Shown here: one piece after another, positions 881-53,585 of the stretch
Layout: the number at the start of each line of letters is the position of its first letter
Position numbering within the stretch: the first letter of the stretch is position 1
Assembly (NCBI RefSeq): GCF_003268655.1
Contig: NZ_CP029642.1
Coordinates: forward strand, 1,860,001 to 1,924,000
DNA length: 64,000 nt
DNA from: Arthrobacter dokdonellae
Lineage (GTDB): Bacteria; Actinomycetota; Actinomycetes; Actinomycetales; Micrococcaceae
Direction: 5' to 3'
The notes under the pieces: generated by a model
The model's input: the letters and a program-made list of their open reading frames with translations, nothing else
What the model was told of the DNA's origin: nothing
Databases searched by the model: none
Program-made: the position numbers and the translations under genes

Positions 881-983
881 GGCGCAGGCCCGGCATTTTT
901 CCGGCGACTATCCGACACCACGGCCGCGGGCGGCCTTTGGCGCCTCCTTGACGTCGCCTACAAAAAATGCCGGCTCCTGCCCC
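881..983 (+). repeat. Structured dispersed repeat, copy A
   Basis: Intergenic element with long inverted arms. GCAGG (884-888) pairs with CCTGC (976-980), and CCGGCATTTTT (890-900) pairs with AAAAATGCCGG (963-973). The interior holds CTATCCGAC (908-916) and a nested GGCCG/CGGCC hairpin (922-935). Copies B (1051-1153, opposite strand) and C (52476-52579) share the interior and the arm layout but differ in arm sequence with matching changes on both sides. It has no coding sense. The 803-1241 gap holds only the proS terminator, this copy, copy B and short motifs. Confidence 0.75.
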
Positions 984-1050
984 TGGTGCCCATGTCACCG
1001 CCGCCCCGGGCCGCGCAATGCGCGCGGCCCGGGGCGGTCCTGTGGCACGA

Positions 1051-1153
1051 GGCGGCGAAGCCGCTGTTTTTGAAAGTCCGGCGTAAAGGAGACCGTAAGG
1101 CCGCCCGCGGCCGGCGGTCGGATAGCCGGACGTAAAAACAGCGGTCCGCCGCC
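1051..1153 (-). repeat. Structured dispersed repeat, copy B (inverted)
   Basis: Same element as copy A on the opposite strand. Arms are GGCGGC (1051-1056) with GCCGCC (1148-1153), and CCGCTGTTTTT (1061-1071) with AAAAACAGCGG (1134-1144). The interior carries the reverse complement of the shared GGCCGCGGGCGGCC core and of GGCTATCCGAC. Compared with A, three consecutive arm pairs are changed on both sides, so pairing is kept although the sequence is not. Copies A and B face each other between proS and the TauE gene. The short words at 836-857 and 1176-1198, which are near reverse complements, bracket the pair. Confidence 0.75.
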
Positions 1154-7896: not shown

Positions 7897-10794
7897 GTGG
7901 CCAAGGCCCGCGTACACGAGCTTGCAAAAGAGCTCGGCATCACCTCAAAAGAAGCAGTGAGCAAACTGCAGGAACTGGGCGAATTCGTTCGCTCGGCATC
8001 CTCCACCATTGAGGCCCCCGTCGTGAAGAAGCTTCGCGACGCATTCCCCGTCGCCCCGAAGACGGCGGAGTCCAAACCAGCCCCTGCGGCGCCCGCCCAG
8101 ACCAAGCCGTCGGGAGCCCCTGCCGCAGCAACCTCGGCGGCACCGGCGGCAGCGCCCGGCCAGAAGGCTGCCGCACCGTCCAAGCCGGCCGGACCCGCCG
8201 CCGCTGCCCCCGCGGCGCCTGCCGCACCCGCCGCCCCGGCACCTTCCGCCCCGGCACCTTCCGCCCCGGCACCTTCCGCTCCGGCACCTTCCGCTCCGGC
8301 ACCTTCCGCTCCGGCACCTGCTGCTTCGGCAGGCCACGCCGCCGCCGGACCGCGCCCGGGCAACAATCCATTCGCCTCCTCGCAGGGCATGCCGCGGTCC
8401 GGGCGCCCCGAGCGTGGCGAGAACCGTGACGGCAACCGCGCCCCGCGACCGGCTGGCTCCGGCGGAGGCGCCGGCGGCCCGCGTCCAGGAAACAACCCGT
8501 TTGCCACCTCGCAGGGCATGCCCCGTCCGGGTGCCCCGCGCAGCGCCGAGGCAGGCACCGGTGGACCCCGTCCGGGTGGCCCGCGCCCCGGTGCGCCCCG
8601 TCCGGGCGCTCCCCGTCCCGCTGGAGCCCCCGGTTCCGGTGGACCCCGTCCGGGTGCACCGCGCCCCGGCGGTGCACGGCCCACCCCGGGCATGATGCCC
8701 AACCGCACCGAGCGCCCCGCGGCTCCCGGCCGCGGCAACGACCGTCCCGGCGGCGCCGGGCGCGGCCGTCCCGGCGCGCCCGGCTCCACGCCGGGCGGCG
8801 CACCGGGCGGCGCTCCCGCCGGTGGTGGCTTTGGCAAGGGCGGCCGCGGCCGCGGCGGCACCCAGGGCGCCTTCGGCAAGGGCGGCGCGGGCCGTGGCAA
8901 GCAGCGCAAGTCGAAGCGTGCCAAGCGCCAGGAACTGGAGCAGATGAGCGCTCCGTCCCTGGGCGGCGTCAGCGTACCCCGTGGCGACGGCAACACCGTG
9001 GTGCGCCTGCGTCGCGGTTCCTCCATCACGGACTTTGCCGACAAGATTGAGGCGAACCCGGCGGCACTGGTGACAGTGCTCTTCCACCTGGGTGAAATGG
9101 CCACGGCCACCCAGTCCCTGGACGAGGACACCTTCGCCCTGCTGGGCGAGGAGCTGGGCTACAAGGTCCAGGTCGTTTCCCCCGAGGACGAAGAGCGCGA
9201 GCTGCTCAGCAGCTTCGACATCGACTTCGAGGCCGAGCTGGAAGCCGAAGGCGACGAGGACCTTGAGGTCCGCCCGCCGGTTGTCACGGTCATGGGCCAC
9301 GTGGACCACGGTAAGACCCGCCTGCTCGATGCCATCCGCAAGTCGGACGTTGTTGCCGACGAACACGGCGGCATCACCCAGCACATCGGTGCCTACCAGA
9401 TCGTGCACGATCATGAAGGCATCCCGCGTGAGATCACCTTCATTGACACCCCCGGCCACGAGGCGTTCACCGCCATGCGTGCCCGTGGTGCCAAGGTCAC
9501 CGACATCGCCATCCTGGTGGTTGCCGCGGACGACGGCGTCATGCCCCAGACCGTTGAGGCCCTCAACCACGCCCAGGCCGCCAATGTGCCGATCGTGGTT
9601 GCGGTCAACAAGATCGACAAGGACACGGCGAACCCGGAGAAGATCCGCGGCCAGCTGACCGAGTACGGCCTGGTGCCCGAGGAATACGGTGGCGACACCA
9701 TGTTCGTGGACGTCTCCGCCCGCAACAACATCAACATCGAGGAACTCCTCGAAGCGGTGTTGCTGACGGCCGACGCAGCCCTGGACATGCGCGCCAACCC
9801 GAACAAGGACGCCCGAGGCATCGCCATTGAAGCGAACCTGGACAAGGGCCGCGGTTCCGTGGCCACCGTCCTGGTGCAGTCCGGCACCCTGCATGTCGGG
9901 GACACGATCGTCGCGGGCACCGCCCACGGCCGCGTCCGTGCCATGTTCGACGAGAACGGCGACGGCATCACCGAGGCCGGGCCGTCGCGTCCGGTCCAGG
10001 TCCTGGGCCTGTCCAACGTGCCACGGGCAGGTGACACGTTCTTCGTCACCGGCGACGAGCGGACAGCCCGCCAGATCGCTGAAAAGCGTGAAGCTGCCGA
10101 CCGCAACGCCGCACTGGCCAAGCGGCGCAAGCGCATCAGCCTGGAAGACTTCGACCAGGCCGTCGCGGAGGGCAAGGTGGACACGCTCAACCTCATCCTC
10201 AAGGGCGACGTCTCCGGTGCCGTGGAGGCCCTGGAAGACTCGCTGCTCAAGATCGACGTCGGCGAAGGCGTGCAGCTGCGCGTCATCCACCGCGGCGTGG
10301 GTGCCATCACGCAGAACGACGTCAACCTGGCCACGGTGGACAACGCCATCATCATCGGCTTCAACGTCAAGCCGGCCGAGCGCGTTGCCGAACTGGCCGA
10401 CCGCGAGGGCGTCGACATGCGCTTCTACTCGGTCATCTACGGCGCCATCGATGACATTGAGCTGGCCCTGAAGGGCATGCTCAAGCCTGAATACGAGGAA
10501 GTCCAGCTGGGCACCGCGGAAATCCGCGAAGTGTTCCGTTCCTCCAAGTTCGGCAACATCGCCGGCTCGATCGTCCGCTCCGGCATCATCCGCCGCAACG
10601 CGAAGGCACGTGTGCTTCGTGGCGGGAAGGTCGTGGGCGACAAGCTCACCGTTGACTCGCTCAAGCGCTTCAAGGATGACGCCACCGAAGTCCGCACCGA
10701 CTTCGAATGCGGCATCGGCCTGGGTTCGTTCAACGACCTGCAGGTCGAGGACATCATCGAGACGTTCGAGATGCGCGAGAAGCCGCGCGCCTGA
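7897..10794 (+). CDS. infB: Translation initiation factor IF-2
   Basis: GTPase that places initiator tRNA on the 30S subunit and promotes subunit joining. 965 residues. The N-terminal IF2N module ([19 protein letters not shown]) is followed by about 270 residues of Ala/Pro- then Gly/Arg/Pro-rich linker with a 15-bp DNA repeat (APAPS units, about 8235-8325) and repeated NNPFA(S/T)SQGMPR motifs. A second IF2N module lies near residue 395. The G domain has G1 GHVDHGKT (467-474), G3 DTPGH (517-521) and G4 NKID (571-574). Domains II-IV follow to the end. GTG start 7897 follows AGGAGA. The long linker is typical of actinobacteria. Confidence 0.97.
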
Positions 10795-17289: not shown

Positions 17290-17469
17290 GTATTGACGCG
17301 AGCCGGCACACATCCGCGTGCCGGAGCGCAGCTTGACCCACGGAACCTCACCGTCCGCCGCGCATTCGCGGTCCTCGGTAGTGGTCTCCGGGAACGGCCC
17401 CGCGGGGCGCCCGTGGACCTCGATCGAAGACCGGGTGTTGTACAGGTACCCACAGCATGATCCGGTGGG

Positions 17470-48746: not shown

Positions 48747-50399
48747 ATGACCAACCCATCCGCACCCCACGGTCCCTCCGACGACCACGATCCCCGCGGC
48801 ACGTCCGCCGCAGGTTCCGCCGGGGATGCCGGCTCGGATCTATCCGTCGCCGAGATCGAGGCCGTCATTGACCGCATCCTGGCCAAGGACGCCGCCGCCG
48901 GCCGGGCCGTCCGCGAGGAGGCACGGCTCGACGCCGACGACCCCCAGTCCGGGGCAGGCGTGTCCCACCCGATCATCGGCCGGGCCCAGGCACTCTCGCC
49001 GCTGGACTCCGGACACAACAGCTTTGACGGCGACCAGACGGAGCTGTCCGATCGCAACGCCCTGCGGCGCACGGCCAGCCTTTCGACCGAACTCGAAGAC
49101 GTCACCGAAGTCGAATACCGCCAGCTTCGTTTGGAACGGGTGGTCCTGGCTGGGCTGTGGAGCGAAGGCACCATGGCCGACGCCGAAAATTCGTTGCGCG
49201 AACTGGCTGCCCTGGCCGAAACCGCCGGATCTGAAGTCCTGGACGGCCTGGTCCAGCGCCGCGCCAAGCCGGACCCCGCCACTTACCTGGGACAGGGCAA
49301 GGCCCAGGAACTGAAGGACATTGTGCAGGCCACCGGCGCGGACACCGTCATCATCGACGGCGACCTTGCCCCCTCACAGCGGCGCACGCTCGAGGAAGTT
49401 GTCAAGGTCAAGGTCATCGACCGGACGGCCCTGATCCTGGACATCTTCGCCCAACACGCCCAGTCCCGCGAGGGCCGGGCGCAGGTCGAGCTGGCCCAGA
49501 TGGAATACCTCCTCCCGCGCCTGCGCGGCTGGGGCGAATCCATGTCCCGGCAGGCCGGCGGCCGCGTCGGCACGGCCGGCGGCGGCATCGGATCCCGCGG
49601 TCCCGGTGAAACCAAGATGGAACTGGACCGGCGCAAGATTCGCACGCGCATGGCCAAGCTGCGCCGGGAAATCGCCGCCATGAAGCCGGCGCGGGAAACC
49701 AAGCGGGCCAACCGCAAGCGCAACGCCGTACCGTCCGTGGCCATCGCCGGCTACACGAACGCCGGAAAGTCCTCGCTGCTCAACCGGCTCACCGACGCCG
49801 GCGTGCTGGTGGAAAACGCCCTGTTCGCCACCCTCGATCCCACGGTGAGAAAGACCGAAACGGCCGACGGCCTCGGCTACACCCTCGTGGACACGGTGGG
49901 TTTTGTCCGCTCACTGCCCACGCAGCTGGTGGAAGCATTCCGGTCCACCCTGGAAGAGGTGGCCGATTCCGACCTCATCCTGCACATCGTGGACGCCTCC
50001 CACCCGGACCCGGAAGGCCAGATTGCGGCCGTCCGCTCCGTGTTTGCCGAGGTCGGCGCCCTGAAGATCGCGGAAATCATCGTCCTGAACAAGGCGGACA
50101 TCGCCGATCCCTTCGTGGTGGAACGCCTGCGCCAGCGCGAGCCGCGCACGGTAGTGGTCTCGGCACGCACCGGGCAGGGGATCGATGACCTCCTGGCTGC
50201 CATCAGTGAGGCCATACCGCGGCCGGGCGTGGCCCTGACGCTGCTCATTCCCTACGACCGCGGCGATGTACTGAACCGCCTCCACCGCAGTGACGCCGAG
50301 ATCATCAGCGTCGAACACGGCGAGGAAGGGACGGTTGCCAAGGTCATGGTCCGCGAGGACCTGGCCAGCGAGGTGGAGCCGTTTGTCCAGCATGAGTGA
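48747..50399 (+). CDS. hflX: Ribosome-associated GTPase HflX
   Basis: GTPase that splits or rescues stalled 70S ribosomes; 550 residues. An acidic, Ala-rich N-terminal extension of about 110 residues precedes the HflX domain (RRAKPDPATYLGQGKAQELK, DGDLAPSQRRTLEEVVKVKV, ILDIFAQHAQSREGRAQVEL, GPGETKMELDRRKIRTRM). The G domain has GYTNAGKS (335-342), DTVGFVRSLP and NKAD. ATG 48747 is backed by TAAGGAGAAC; the longer open frame upstream reaches into antisense sequence. TATAAC (48726-48731) could be the -10. DinG overlaps its end by eight bases. Confidence 0.95.
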   Translation: MTNPSAPHGPSDDHDPRGTSAAGSAGDAGSDLSVAEIEAVIDRILAKDAAAGRAVREEARLDADDPQSGAGVSHPIIGRAQALSPLDSGHNSFDGDQTELSDRNALRRTASLSTELEDVTEVEYRQLRLERVVLAGLWSEGTMADAENSLRELAALAETAGSEVLDGLVQRRAKPDPATYLGQGKAQELKDIVQATGADTVIIDGDLAPSQRRTLEEVVKVKVIDRTALILDIFAQHAQSREGRAQVELAQMEYLLPRLRGWGESMSRQAGGRVGTAGGGIGSRGPGETKMELDRRKIRTRMAKLRREIAAMKPARETKRANRKRNAVPSVAIAGYTNAGKSSLLNRLTDAGVLVENALFATLDPTVRKTETADGLGYTLVDTVGFVRSLPTQLVEAFRSTLEEVADSDLILHIVDASHPDPEGQIAAVRSVFAEVGALKIAEIIVLNKADIADPFVVERLRQREPRTVVVSARTGQGIDDLLAAISEAIPRPGVALTLLIPYDRGDVLNRLHRSDAEIISVEHGEEGTVAKVMVREDLASEVEPFVQHE

Positions 50400-52461
50400 G
50401 GCCGCCACCACGGCTGACGCGGACATCGACGCTGAAAGCCCGGAGGCGCTGACCGCCCAGGCGCTGGAACTGCTGGACAGCGCCGTGGCAGCCATGGGCG
50501 GCCAGCGCCGCGACGGCCAGCACGAGATGGTCCGACGCGTGGTGGAAGCCATTGAAAGCGGTGACCACCTGCTGGTGCAGGCAGGCACCGGAACGGGCAA
50601 GTCGCTGGCCTACCTGATCCCGTTGATCGTGCATTCCCTGACCAGCGACAAACCGTCCGTGGTGGCCACGGCCACATTGGCCCTGCAGGCCCAGATCGTG
50701 GGCCGTGACGTGCCACGGCTGCTGGCAGCGCTCGAGCCGCTGCTGCCGCGGCCCATCGACGTCGCCTTGGTCAAGGGGCGCAGCAACTACGTGTGCAAGC
50801 ATAAGCTTGGCGGCGGTTTCCCCTCCGAGGACTCCTCTGAGGGCGCCCTGTTCAGCCTGGGCGAAGACGCCACCGTGGTGCACCTGCCCGGCGCCAAGTC
50901 GGGCCCGTCCTCACCGTTGGGCCGGGAAGTGGTCCGGCTGCGCGAATGGGCCGAGGACACCCCAACGGGTGACCGCGACGAACTCATGCCCGGCGTCACC
51001 GACAAGGCCTGGCGCCAGGTCTCGGTCACCTCGATGGAGTGCCTGGGTGCACAGAAATGCCCCCTTGCGGAAGTCTGCTTCTCCGAACTGGCCCGGGCCA
51101 AGGGCGCCGAGGCGGACATCGTGGTGACCAATCACGCCATGTTGGCCATCAGCGCCTTTGAAGGCATTGCGGTGCTGCCCGACTACGATGTCGTGGTGGT
51201 GGACGAGGCCCACGAGCTCCAGGACCGCGTCACCGGGGCCGTCACCGGCCAGCTGTCCGTGCAGATGGTCCAGGCCGCGGCATCAAGCACACGCAAGCAC
51301 ACCGGCGTCTCGGTGGAGGCGCTCCACGCCGCCGCGACGGCCCTGGACATGGCCTTTTCCGGCACGCCCAGCGGGCTGCTGCCCAACGGGCTCAATGAGG
51401 AACACACCGCCGCCATCGAACAGTTGCGCGACGCCGCACGCGTGGCACTCTCCGACTCCAAGCCGGACGGCAATGCAGCGGCGGACGGTGGCCGGTCCAT
51501 TGCCAGGTCGCGGTTGAACCTGATCTTTGACCTGTGCGAACGGCTGCTCACCGCCCGGGATGCCCGCGAAGTGGTGTGGACCGCCCGGACCGGAACATTT
51601 GCCCCGGGCAAGGGCTACCAAAAGGCCGACGACAGCGAACCTCCCGTCATCAACATTGCCCCGCTCAGCGTGGCAGGCAAACTCCGTGAGGGCCTCTTTT
51701 CCGACCATACAGTGGTGCTCACCTCCGCCACCCTGGCCATCGGCGAGTCGTTCCAGGCCACGGCCGGCGGCCTTGGCCTGCTGGGTGCGAACGCACCGGC
51801 CTGGACGGGAGCCGACGTCGGCTCACCGTTTGACTACCCCAAACAGGGCATGTTGTACGTGGCGGCTCACCTGGCCAAGCCGGGCTTCGGCAATTCTCCC
51901 GAACAGCTGGCCGAGTTGGAGGCGCTCATCACTGCCGCCGGCGGCGGTACCTTGGCGCTCTTCTCCTCCCGGAGGGCGGCGGAGGACGCCGCGGAAAAGC
52001 TGCGCAAAAAGCTCAAGGTCAGGATCCTGTGCCAAGGGGATTCGTCCATGGCCGGGCTCATCAAGGAGTTTTCCGACGAGCCGGACACGTGCCTGTTTGG
52101 CACCATGTCCTTGTGGCAGGGAGTGGACGTCCAAGGCGCTTCCTGCCGGCTGGTGGTCATCGACCGGATCCCGTTCCCGCGTCCGGACGACCCCCTCGTG
52201 ACAGCACGTGCGCGGGCCGTGGCCCAAAGCGGCGGGGACGGGTTCATCGCCATTTCCGCAACGCATGCCGCCATCCGGCTGGCACAGGGCGTGGGCCGGC
52301 TGATCCGTTCCAGCAGCGACCGCGGCGTGGTGGCGGTCCTCGATTCCCGTCTGGCAAACGCCGGCTACGGCGGCTTTCTGCGTGCCGCCCTGCCGCCGTT
52401 CTGGTCCACCAAGGACCGCTCCGTGGCCCTCGCGGCGCTCCAAAGGCTGTCCGGGAAGTAG
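50392..52461 (+). CDS. DinG/XPD-type ATP-dependent DNA helicase
   Basis: 689-residue superfamily 2 helicase related to DinG and XPD. Walker A AGTGTGKS (64-71). The Fe-S cysteines are Cys in SNYVCKHKLGG and in SMECLGAQKCPLAEVCFSEL. DEAH box DEAH (271-274). C-terminal motifs TLALFSSRRAAEDAAEKL, MSLWQGVDVQGASCRLVVID and LAQGVGRLIRSSSDRGVVAV. It unwinds 5'-tailed DNA, D-loops or R-loops during repair in the family. ATG 50392 overlaps hflX; cotranslation is likely. Repeat copy C begins 15 bases after the stop. Confidence 0.93.
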   Translation: MSEAATTADADIDAESPEALTAQALELLDSAVAAMGGQRRDGQHEMVRRVVEAIESGDHLLVQAGTGTGKSLAYLIPLIVHSLTSDKPSVVATATLALQAQIVGRDVPRLLAALEPLLPRPIDVALVKGRSNYVCKHKLGGGFPSEDSSEGALFSLGEDATVVHLPGAKSGPSSPLGREVVRLREWAEDTPTGDRDELMPGVTDKAWRQVSVTSMECLGAQKCPLAEVCFSELARAKGAEADIVVTNHAMLAISAFEGIAVLPDYDVVVVDEAHELQDRVTGAVTGQLSVQMVQAAASSTRKHTGVSVEALHAAATALDMAFSGTPSGLLPNGLNEEHTAAIEQLRDAARVALSDSKPDGNAAADGGRSIARSRLNLIFDLCERLLTARDAREVVWTARTGTFAPGKGYQKADDSEPPVINIAPLSVAGKLREGLFSDHTVVLTSATLAIGESFQATAGGLGLLGANAPAWTGADVGSPFDYPKQGMLYVAAHLAKPGFGNSPEQLAELEALITAAGGGTLALFSSRRAAEDAAEKLRKKLKVRILCQGDSSMAGLIKEFSDEPDTCLFGTMSLWQGVDVQGASCRLVVIDRIPFPRPDDPLVTARARAVAQSGGDGFIAISATHAAIRLAQGVGRLIRSSSDRGVVAVLDSRLANAGYGGFLRAALPPFWSTKDRSVALAALQRLSGK

Positions 52462-52475
52462 CCGCTTCGCCGTTT

Positions 52476-52579
52476 GCGGCGCCGGCCCGACATTTTTCCG
52501 TCGGCTATCCGACGCGTCGGCCGCGGGCGGCCTTTGGCGTCTCCATTACGCCTCCTACAAAAAATGCCGGCTCCGCCGC
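52476..52579 (+). repeat. Structured dispersed repeat, copy C
   Basis: Same element as copies A and B, in the convergent gap between dinG and lexA. Arms: GCGGC (52476-52480) pairs with GCCGC (52575-52579); CCGACATTTTT (52487-52497) pairs with AAAAATGCCGG (52560-52570) with one A/C mismatch. The interior carries GGCTATCCGAC and the core GGCCGCGGGCGGCC, then TTTGGCGTCTCC. It may terminate both converging genes. Confidence 0.75.
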
Positions 52580-52658
52580 TTCGGTTCGCGCACGTCAACA
52601 ACACGGAAGCGCCCCCGGCCTGGTTGCCGGGGGCGCTGCTGGGTCCCGCGGGGAACGT

Positions 52659-53402
52659 CTACAGGCTGCGGAGGACGGAGACGACCTTGCCCATGACCGT
52701 GGCCTCGTCACCGAGGATGGGCTCGTATCGCGTGTTCTGTGGCAGCAGCCACGTGTGTCCGTCGCGCTGGCGGAAGGTCTTGACCGTTGCTTCGTCCTCC
52801 AGCAGGGCGGCGACAATGTCACCGTTGTTGGCCGAGTTCTGCCGGCGGACAACCACCCAGTCTCCGTCGCAGATTGCGGCGTCAATCATGGAATCGCCGG
52901 CCACCTTGAGCATGAACAGCTCACCGCTGCCCACAATCTGGCGCGGGAGGGGCATGATGTCGTCAACCACCTGGTCCGCGAGGATGGGCCCGCCCGCTGC
53001 GATCCGGCCCACAAGCGGGACAAAGGCAGTGTCCGAGGAACTGCTCAGCTGGGCAAAGTTCAGGCCATTGGAACTGCGGACCTGTTCCGGCTCGTTGACG
53101 CCTTCGATGGCCACGACGCCGTTGTCGATGACCAGGGGGATGAGCACTTCCATGGCGCGCGGGCGCTTGGGGTCGCGGCGCAGGTAGCCGTGGCGTTCGA
53201 GCTGTGTGAGCTGGTGGGTGACGCTGGAGAGACTTGCCAGTCCCACGTCGTCGCCAATCTCCCTCATGGACGGCGGATATCCCTTGTCGGCGATGGAGCG
53301 TTGGATGCATTCCAGAATCTTCTTCTGCCGCACCGTCAGCCCTTTCATGCCGGCCCGGCTGGGAGCCTGCGGGATTCGATGCGGAGGTTCGGGTAGTGCC
53401 AT
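52659..53402 (-). CDS. lexA: SOS repressor LexA
   Basis: Repressor of the SOS response, self-cleaving with RecA. 247 residues. The winged helix (about 20-85) includes [20 protein letters not shown] and [17 protein letters not shown]. The cleavage site is Ala136-Gly137 in RIAAGGP. The catalytic Ser171 is in VAGDSMIDA and Lys208 in EATVKTF. ATG 53402 is set by AAGGAAC seven bases upstream; the longer open frame has no LexA likeness. Two LexA boxes lie 184 and about 250 bases upstream in the gap shared with the divergent LysM gene. Conserved next to dinG/hflX in actinobacteria. Confidence 0.96.
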
Positions 53403-53585
53403 GTTCCTTCGATCCTTTCTGCGGATGCAGCCAATAATGTCGGTGCCTGCTCTGGGTCGGTGCCGCCCGGTGCCGCTCGGTGCAACTCCGGGCCCGCTCA
53501 ATGTCAGTGCCTGCTGGTGGACTGCTCCTGTTGGCTCCTGTTGGCGCATCCTGTACCTCAAGATTAAGCCCGCGATGGACGAATT

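Follow-up and report, generated by a model that had tools for sequence, protein, structure and literature searches.

REP-like repeats are known chiefly in Proteobacteria and are tied to RAYTs, and in BIMEs the Y and Z units alternate. In the passages of Di Nocera et al. (2013; PMC3733652) that describe them, GTAG-tagged REPs are intergenic, lie near 3' ends and have convergent or unidirectional genes as neighbors; the main text of that paper does not contain the words Arthrobacter, Actinobacteria, or Micrococc-. REPINs are presented, in the parts of PMC3116915 that concern them, as inverted doublets with compensatory changes, and REP hairpins are described in passages of PMC12306157 as a barrier to exoribonucleases. 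These passages also quote an E. coli REP consensus that ends in CCTACGA, and the RepRanger table of the same paper gives 5,512 entries for Arthrobacter livingstonensis, which by the order of its columns are read as REP candidates. A literature search of titles and abstract beginnings returned no description of the covarying ~103-bp Arthrobacter family considered here.

The window, which is the whole stretch of 64,000 nucleotides of Arthrobacter dokdonellae that was analyzed, contains three copies of this unit (A, B, and C). We think it probable that they belong to a family of extragenic palindromes, BIME-like and independent of a RAYT, that occurs in Arthrobacter and related Micrococcaceae and would act as a hairpin at the 3' ends of mRNAs.

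Anatomy of the unit and its copies in the window

The unit is ~103 bp long and forms one nested hairpin, consisting of P1 (8 pairs), P2 (10 pairs), and P3 (6 pairs and 2 weak loop-closing pairs), and, inside P3, an asymmetric internal loop, P4 (4 pairs), and a 5-pair tip with its loop of four bases. The internal loop (TATCC / CTCCTTTAC) and the tip (GGCCG-CNNG-CGGCC) are fixed, and 113 of 125 rows have the motif CTAC 3' of the tip, which corresponds to GTAG on the opposite strand, at the foot of P3. Complementarity ends at P1, beyond which the flanks pair at 0.2-0.4, equal to the background, and the ends of the element are sharp. Two subtypes are distinguished by P2, namely the T-type (TTTT) and the C-type (TTCC). 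An additional stem of ~57 bases is present in at least six copies (L005/L029, L086, L094, L099, L198, and L136/L165), of which L005/L029 is in the A. dokdonellae genome; its position is always the same, after the 5' arm of P3 and before the internal loop. This module, GGGCCCAC..GCGAGCTTGCGAGC..TTGGGG, forms a third arm in several fold predictions and also occurs within a second hairpin family (L138). A tandem of the GGGCCCAC..GCGAGCTTGCGAGC module, with no unit matched there, was observed near 227.9 kb of the A. dokdonellae genome (L324, about 9870-10090).

An initial sequence-only reading had proposed three copies of a structured repeat, and all three proved to be real. The covariance model R1 places copy A at 879-983 (+; 110.0 bits), copy B at 1051-1155 (-; 106.6 bits), and copy C at 52476-52580 (+; 108.9 bits), scores that are to be read with the fact that all three are among the six copies from which R1 was built, and the complementary arms that had been named for each copy are found in the sequence as written. 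Copy A, which is also recognized from its sequence and fold, is a T-type unit with P1 at 884-888/976-980 (GCAGG and CCTGC), P2 at 890-900/963-973 (CCGGCATTTTT and AAAAATGCCGG), P3 at 903-908/953-958, the internal loop TATCC at 909-913, the tip stem at 922-926/931-935 around the loop at 927-930, and CTAC (GTAG on the other strand) at 958-961. Copy B is a T-type variant that contains GTTTTT and lacks the GTAG tag, with GAAAG in its stead. Its inner arm, read on the minus strand, is CCGCTGTTTTT / AAAAACAGCGG, and three neighboring pairs are changed on both sides relative to A. Copy C is also T-type with imperfect P2 and P3, as its inner arm (CCGACATTTTT / AAAAATGCCGG) includes an A.C mismatch and pairing is disrupted in its third helix (TCGGC / GCCTC). 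The RNA fold z-scores of the modelled strand are -3.0 for A, -7.1 for B (DNA fold, -5.2), and -1.2 for C, which is the weakest of the three copies and hardly surpasses shuffled versions of itself.

Copies A and B face each other, as had been noticed, across a spacer (984-1050) that contains a perfect 16-bp terminator-like hairpin with arms at 1001-1016 and 1022-1037. The order A, hairpin, B also occurs in congener G004 (L136; by eye). A larger inverted repeat (832-1202; arms 832-903 and 1131-1202, 78% complementary) takes in the outer flanks of both copies. The genes on either side are in tandem, with the 3' part of a proline--tRNA ligase gene upstream (8-802, +, cut by the window edge; NCBIfam E 4.7e-85) and a permease-like gene downstream (1242-2066, +; NCBIfam PRK10621 ‘hypothetical protein’, E 4.6e-44), which we take to be of the TauE/SafE type. 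Copy C is located, as also reported in the initial reading, between convergent genes, namely a DinG/YoaA-type helicase gene (50290-52461, +; NCBIfam E 8.2e-129) and lexA (52659-53561, -). The curated NCBIfam cut-off was passed by lexA only, and the other neighbor names rest on E-values from 4.6e-44 to 8.2e-129. A separate terminator-like hairpin lies between copy C and lexA (52601-52644), and a G+C-rich hairpin is found at this place in element-free relatives as well (L109, L111, L112, and L119; by eye).

Distribution, shared slots, and possible mobility

The exact core occurs seven times in the A. dokdonellae genome (reversed control: 0), and R1 was built from six of these copies, the seventh (2415774) having unrelated outer arms. 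A genome search with a covariance model, as suggested by the initial reading, recovered 20 copies at E ≤ 5e-4 among 23 matches at E ≤ 10, and one of the three weaker matches is copy A read backwards. At E ≤ 0.01, R1 matched this genome and all 22 congeners with 1-35 matches each, counts that are approximate and may be too low because scoring was limited to the best first-look candidates, and it matched none of 15 genomes from other genera. The copies analyzed are mostly the best-scoring entries of a list of limited length, with 100 loci per model search. The sole R1 match in congener G017 (L056) is a related hairpin of the second family with the tip in common, and congener G016 has a tandem array of six nearly identical copies at a 111-bp period. 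Named records with the exact core belong to Arthrobacter, including A. silviterrae, A. wenxiniae, and A. cryoconiti. A Geodermatophilus record with a core match scored only 14 bits under R1 and was dismissed as chance. The element was also seen in record NZ_JADHDY010000005.1 (L103), which is labelled Sporosarcina beigongshangi; the label is probably wrong, and the record is likely from the Arthrobacter congener G013.

A second model, R2, found matches in 107 of 395 genomes of the family, representing 6 of 32 genera, and outside Arthrobacter there was mostly one match per genome and at most four. At the level of the order, 6 of 297 genomes match, five of which are in the family; the one outside is weak (G560, 29.7 bits) and was rejected as a probable chance match. 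In genus g45, one unit of a related subtype is located just after the rpoB stop codon in all 12 genomes examined, which, like those of g46, were picked for having R2 matches (stop motif in 12 of 12, rpoC start by a strict motif in 10 of 12, and gene families checked in one genome). Nine of these units are in one orientation and three in the other. One locus (L282) has the apparent remains of an opposite unit beside its unit, as would be expected if a face-to-face pair had been ancestral and had lost different members. In genus g46, the same subtype follows pyrH in nine of nine genomes examined, and frr was recognized downstream in seven of them. Genomes of g46 without any match exist (at least G067 and G092), and retention is therefore incomplete or not always detectable.

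Most copies are single and not part of doublets. Among 18 neighboring pairs within 400 bp, 17 are face to face, none is back to back, and one is in tandem; when each slot is counted once (by hand), 12 of 12 are face to face. These doublets combine a T-type with a C-type unit in 14 of 17 typed pairs (expected fraction 0.40, P 4e-4) and in 9 of 11 slots (P 0.006, the mixed proS slot being left out). The 135 copies that were assigned to slots occupy 59 of them, and 27 slots, holding 103 copies, are common to at least two genomes. Pairs of copies from the same slot have the same orientation in 129 cases and opposite orientations in 113, partly because slots hold face-to-face pairs. Same-slot copies in the same orientation have a mean identity of 0.79, compared to 0.75 for random copies, and the 40 bases adjoining same-slot copies have identities of 0.53 and 0.51, which is near the random value of 0.47. 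Some same-slot pairs are much closer (e.g., L035/L038 at 0.96, with flanks at 0.48 and 0.51). The identities of copies and flanks suggest that slots are kept or reused while their content turns over, whether by fresh insertion, by gene conversion, or by losses from a pair that was present ancestrally.

The slot of copy C carries the element in A. dokdonellae (G000) and G010 and has lost it in G019, where an arm is left (by eye). This seemingly empty site (L109) was considered as a pre-insertion site and rejected, as it retains the right P1 arm and is read as a deletion scar. Inspection by eye showed other families of hairpins in the proS slot of several congeners. One of these, a second family around CAGTAAGATTT ... 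AAATCCATCC, occupies the A/B slot at L138, L142, L147, and L149-L152 and was also observed at L056; this family is absent from the window, and one exact form of its motif is present in 6 of 405 loci. A third, different nested hairpin of similar size occupies the proS slot of G018 (L141; by eye), and the proS and dinG slots of G011 (L143 and L115) contain arrays of GGTCGAGCCTGTCGAAACC-type palindromes (by eye).

The units may be mobile, and a RAYT was considered as the mobilizer. The transposase search covered Y1_Tnp (PF01797; RAYT/IS200 family) only. There were no matches in the A. dokdonellae genome, and at E ≤ 0.001 the domain occurs in 14 of the 395 family genomes and in 2 of 22 congeners. 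The Y1 genes of these two congeners are read as parts of IS605-type elements, and no R1 match lies within 1.5 kb of them. A RAYT was accordingly rejected as the mobilizer. Spread of the units would thus depend on an enzyme other than a Y1/RAYT transposase, presumably acting on a folded-strand substrate; without a RAYT, a doublet-forming family of this length and strong covariation calls for such an enzyme.

The initial reading had allowed that the copies could be decayed ends of a transposon, which the boundaries and the search for Y1 transposases argue against. If the units were MITEs, the decayed or internally deleted remnants of a classical inverted-repeat transposon, this would agree with their dispersal, with a number of matches that varies from 1 to 35, with their inverted-repeat ends, and with their loss at an orthologous site. 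There is, however, no clear excess of target duplications at the boundaries compared to shuffled flank pairs, with only weak excesses of 2-bp repeats (19 vs. 11 and 18 vs. 9), the ends are sharp but variable, and conservation of the outer arms is among the lowest in the unit. Moreover, with one copy as the query, no phage record was matched and the plasmid matches were two places on a single 754-kb Arthrobacter plasmid, and the Y1 genes of the two congeners are not accompanied by units. We therefore consider an origin as MITEs quite improbable.

Covariation and its possible causes

The sequence-only reading had inferred from A, B, and C that changes in the arms preserve pairing, and this holds across the family. 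The alignment comprises 118 distinct rows fitted to the structure of R1, and hence leans that way; in it, both sides have changed at 27 of 35 pairs. Double-change cells, which count sequences and not events, number 490, compared to 115 ± 12 in column shuffles, and the covariation score is 0.358, compared to 0.118 ± 0.004 when shuffled and at most 0.095 for slid structures, so that the compensatory excess is present under two controls. By helix, double changes affect 8 of 8 pairs in P1, 10 of 10 in P2, 6 of 8 in P3, 3 of 4 in P4, and 0 of 5 in the tip. Column identity is 0.79 in the arms, 0.963 in eight internal-loop columns (chosen after the alignment was seen), and 0.997 in the tip stem; when all columns are taken together, conservation is no higher at unpaired (0.80) than at paired positions (0.84). 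A joint alignment of the rpoB and pyrH loci (20 of 21, with L276 omitted as a near copy of L274) has double changes at 17 of 34 pairs, and mean identity is 0.957 over 11 inner unpaired columns. A protein would probably recognize the fixed loop and tip, and the arms would need only to pair.

Template switching corrects imperfect palindromes from arm to arm, and the covariation could therefore be a by-product of such repair, with pairing kept without selection. Consistent with this, whole P1 blocks are replaced in step, as copying of an arm would do (e.g., L176 and L190), and rare one-sided mismatches over the whole structure (two loop-closing columns left out) are roughly symmetric, with 51 AC and 35 GT. 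Template switching should also erase the internal loop and the bulge, however, yet the eight loop columns are among the most conserved, and P3 is 96% Watson-Crick. We regard this by-product explanation as unlikely. As template-switch repair can create paired changes too, selection on the fold, which had been put forward in the initial reading, is likely and not proven.

Placement, probable function, and comparison with known systems

The placement of 115 copies was determined with a simple gene caller that relies on third-position G+C. Both neighbors were classified for 83 copies, of which 34 lie between convergent genes, 49 between tandem genes, and none between divergent genes; the rest consists of 10 copies scored inside an ORF by this crude caller and 22 without a classified neighbor. 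By comparison, divergent genes flank 28 of the 92 core-free intergenic gaps that served as background (Fisher P 1.6e-9), which came from the window and from 41 of the 42 core-search loci. Copies lie a median of 24 bp from the nearest 3' gene end, and the units thus have a common position just 3' of genes, whose absence would have spoken against the initial reading. Orientation between tandem genes is not biased towards either strand (29 vs. 20, P 0.25). Replication-strand bias was likewise not seen among 53 tallied copies (28 vs. 25), for which origin and terminus were assumed at position 1 and half-way, because the GC skew gave a noisy signal and a search for a dnaA motif was negative; the tally covers 53 of 72 matches (G000 20/20, G015 16/24, and G006 17/28). 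The lack of a gene or replication strand preference weakens both oriented RNA and lagging-strand models. The initial suggestion of a folded RNA or a DNA cruciform is supported, and either RNA or DNA may be the molecule that folds.

The position 3' of genes and between convergent genes, together with the strength of the hairpins, would also suit transcription terminators usable in either orientation. The T/A runs, however, sit within P2, with none after the hairpin; separate terminator-like hairpins are present beside C and between A and B; and the rpoB-rpoC and pyrH-frr gaps hold related units. We consider a role as terminators very unlikely.

A regulatory RNA acting in cis, or a gene for a small RNA, with the sense strand fixed in either case, would agree with the strong covariation and with several strand asymmetries. 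The GTAG strand is the better RNA fold in 123 of 125 rows (-63.0 vs. -53.9 kcal/mol), perhaps owing to its purine-rich loops, and common one-sided mismatches in P2 on the modelled strand (97 AC vs. 11 GT, with two poorly aligned copies of 115 left out) indicate that GU is favored on the GTAG strand, a preference that comes mostly from one subfamily. On the other hand, both orientations occur between tandem genes and after rpoB, and Rfam gave no match at the gathering level to the elements in the window and none up to E 0.1 to nine related loci. Such an RNA with a fixed sense strand seems to us highly doubtful. Sub-threshold Rfam listings were judged to be chance. The only gathering-level match in the window was to a known family, the Actino-pnp RNA (RF01688), and lies elsewhere, at 17367-17435 (+; 62.8 bits).

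For the preferred reading, that of a RAYT-independent 3'-end hairpin, we envisage units that stand singly or as face-to-face pairs of two subtypes just after genes, where the transcript is predicted to fold into a strong hairpin. Most likely, this hairpin would serve as a REP-type mRNA 3' end in either orientation, where it may slow 3'-to-5' decay or mark a processing point. A more tentative extension, which we hold to be somewhat doubtful, is that these are mobile DNA hairpins of Actinobacteria without a RAYT that were recruited as operon punctuation, such that a hairpin of this superfamily is retained by selection in set slots (after rpoB, pyrH, and proS) while arms, subtype, and even orientation turn over; the g46 genomes without a match lower its probability. 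The rpoB-rpoC and pyrH-frr gaps are natural replicates for the effect of an extragenic hairpin on a core operon, because the arms (and after rpoB also the orientation) differ among species while the hairpin stays.

The family appears to be undescribed, although it may be among the Arthrobacter candidates of RepRanger, for which the passages of PMC12306157 give no motif, length, or structure. Its size, conservation pattern, and lack of a RAYT set it apart from the REP families described so far. Similar to MITEs, the units are short, dispersed, inverted-repeat DNA without coding capacity, but target duplication was not found at the Arthrobacter units, and they share covarying helices and fixed loops with the structured RNAs of Rfam. 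With the GTAG-tagged REPs, as described in passages of PMC3733652, they have in common a GTAG at the unpaired foot of the stem, a 3' placement, and inverted dimers; they differ from these 20-40-bp repeats by their length of ~103 bp, two additional outer helices, and an invariant internal loop, and also by a copy number of about 20 and the absence of a RAYT. REPINs, according to parts of PMC3116915, have conserved end 16-mers around a variable spacer and are tied to RAYTs, whereas here the outer arms vary, the loop and tip are conserved, and the A. dokdonellae genome has no Y1/RAYT. The units nevertheless resemble BIMEs and REPINs, as presented there, in their doublets of one fixed mutual orientation, tandem clusters, and compensatory stem changes, and the pairs of T- and C-type units resemble the BIME mosaic of two unit types.
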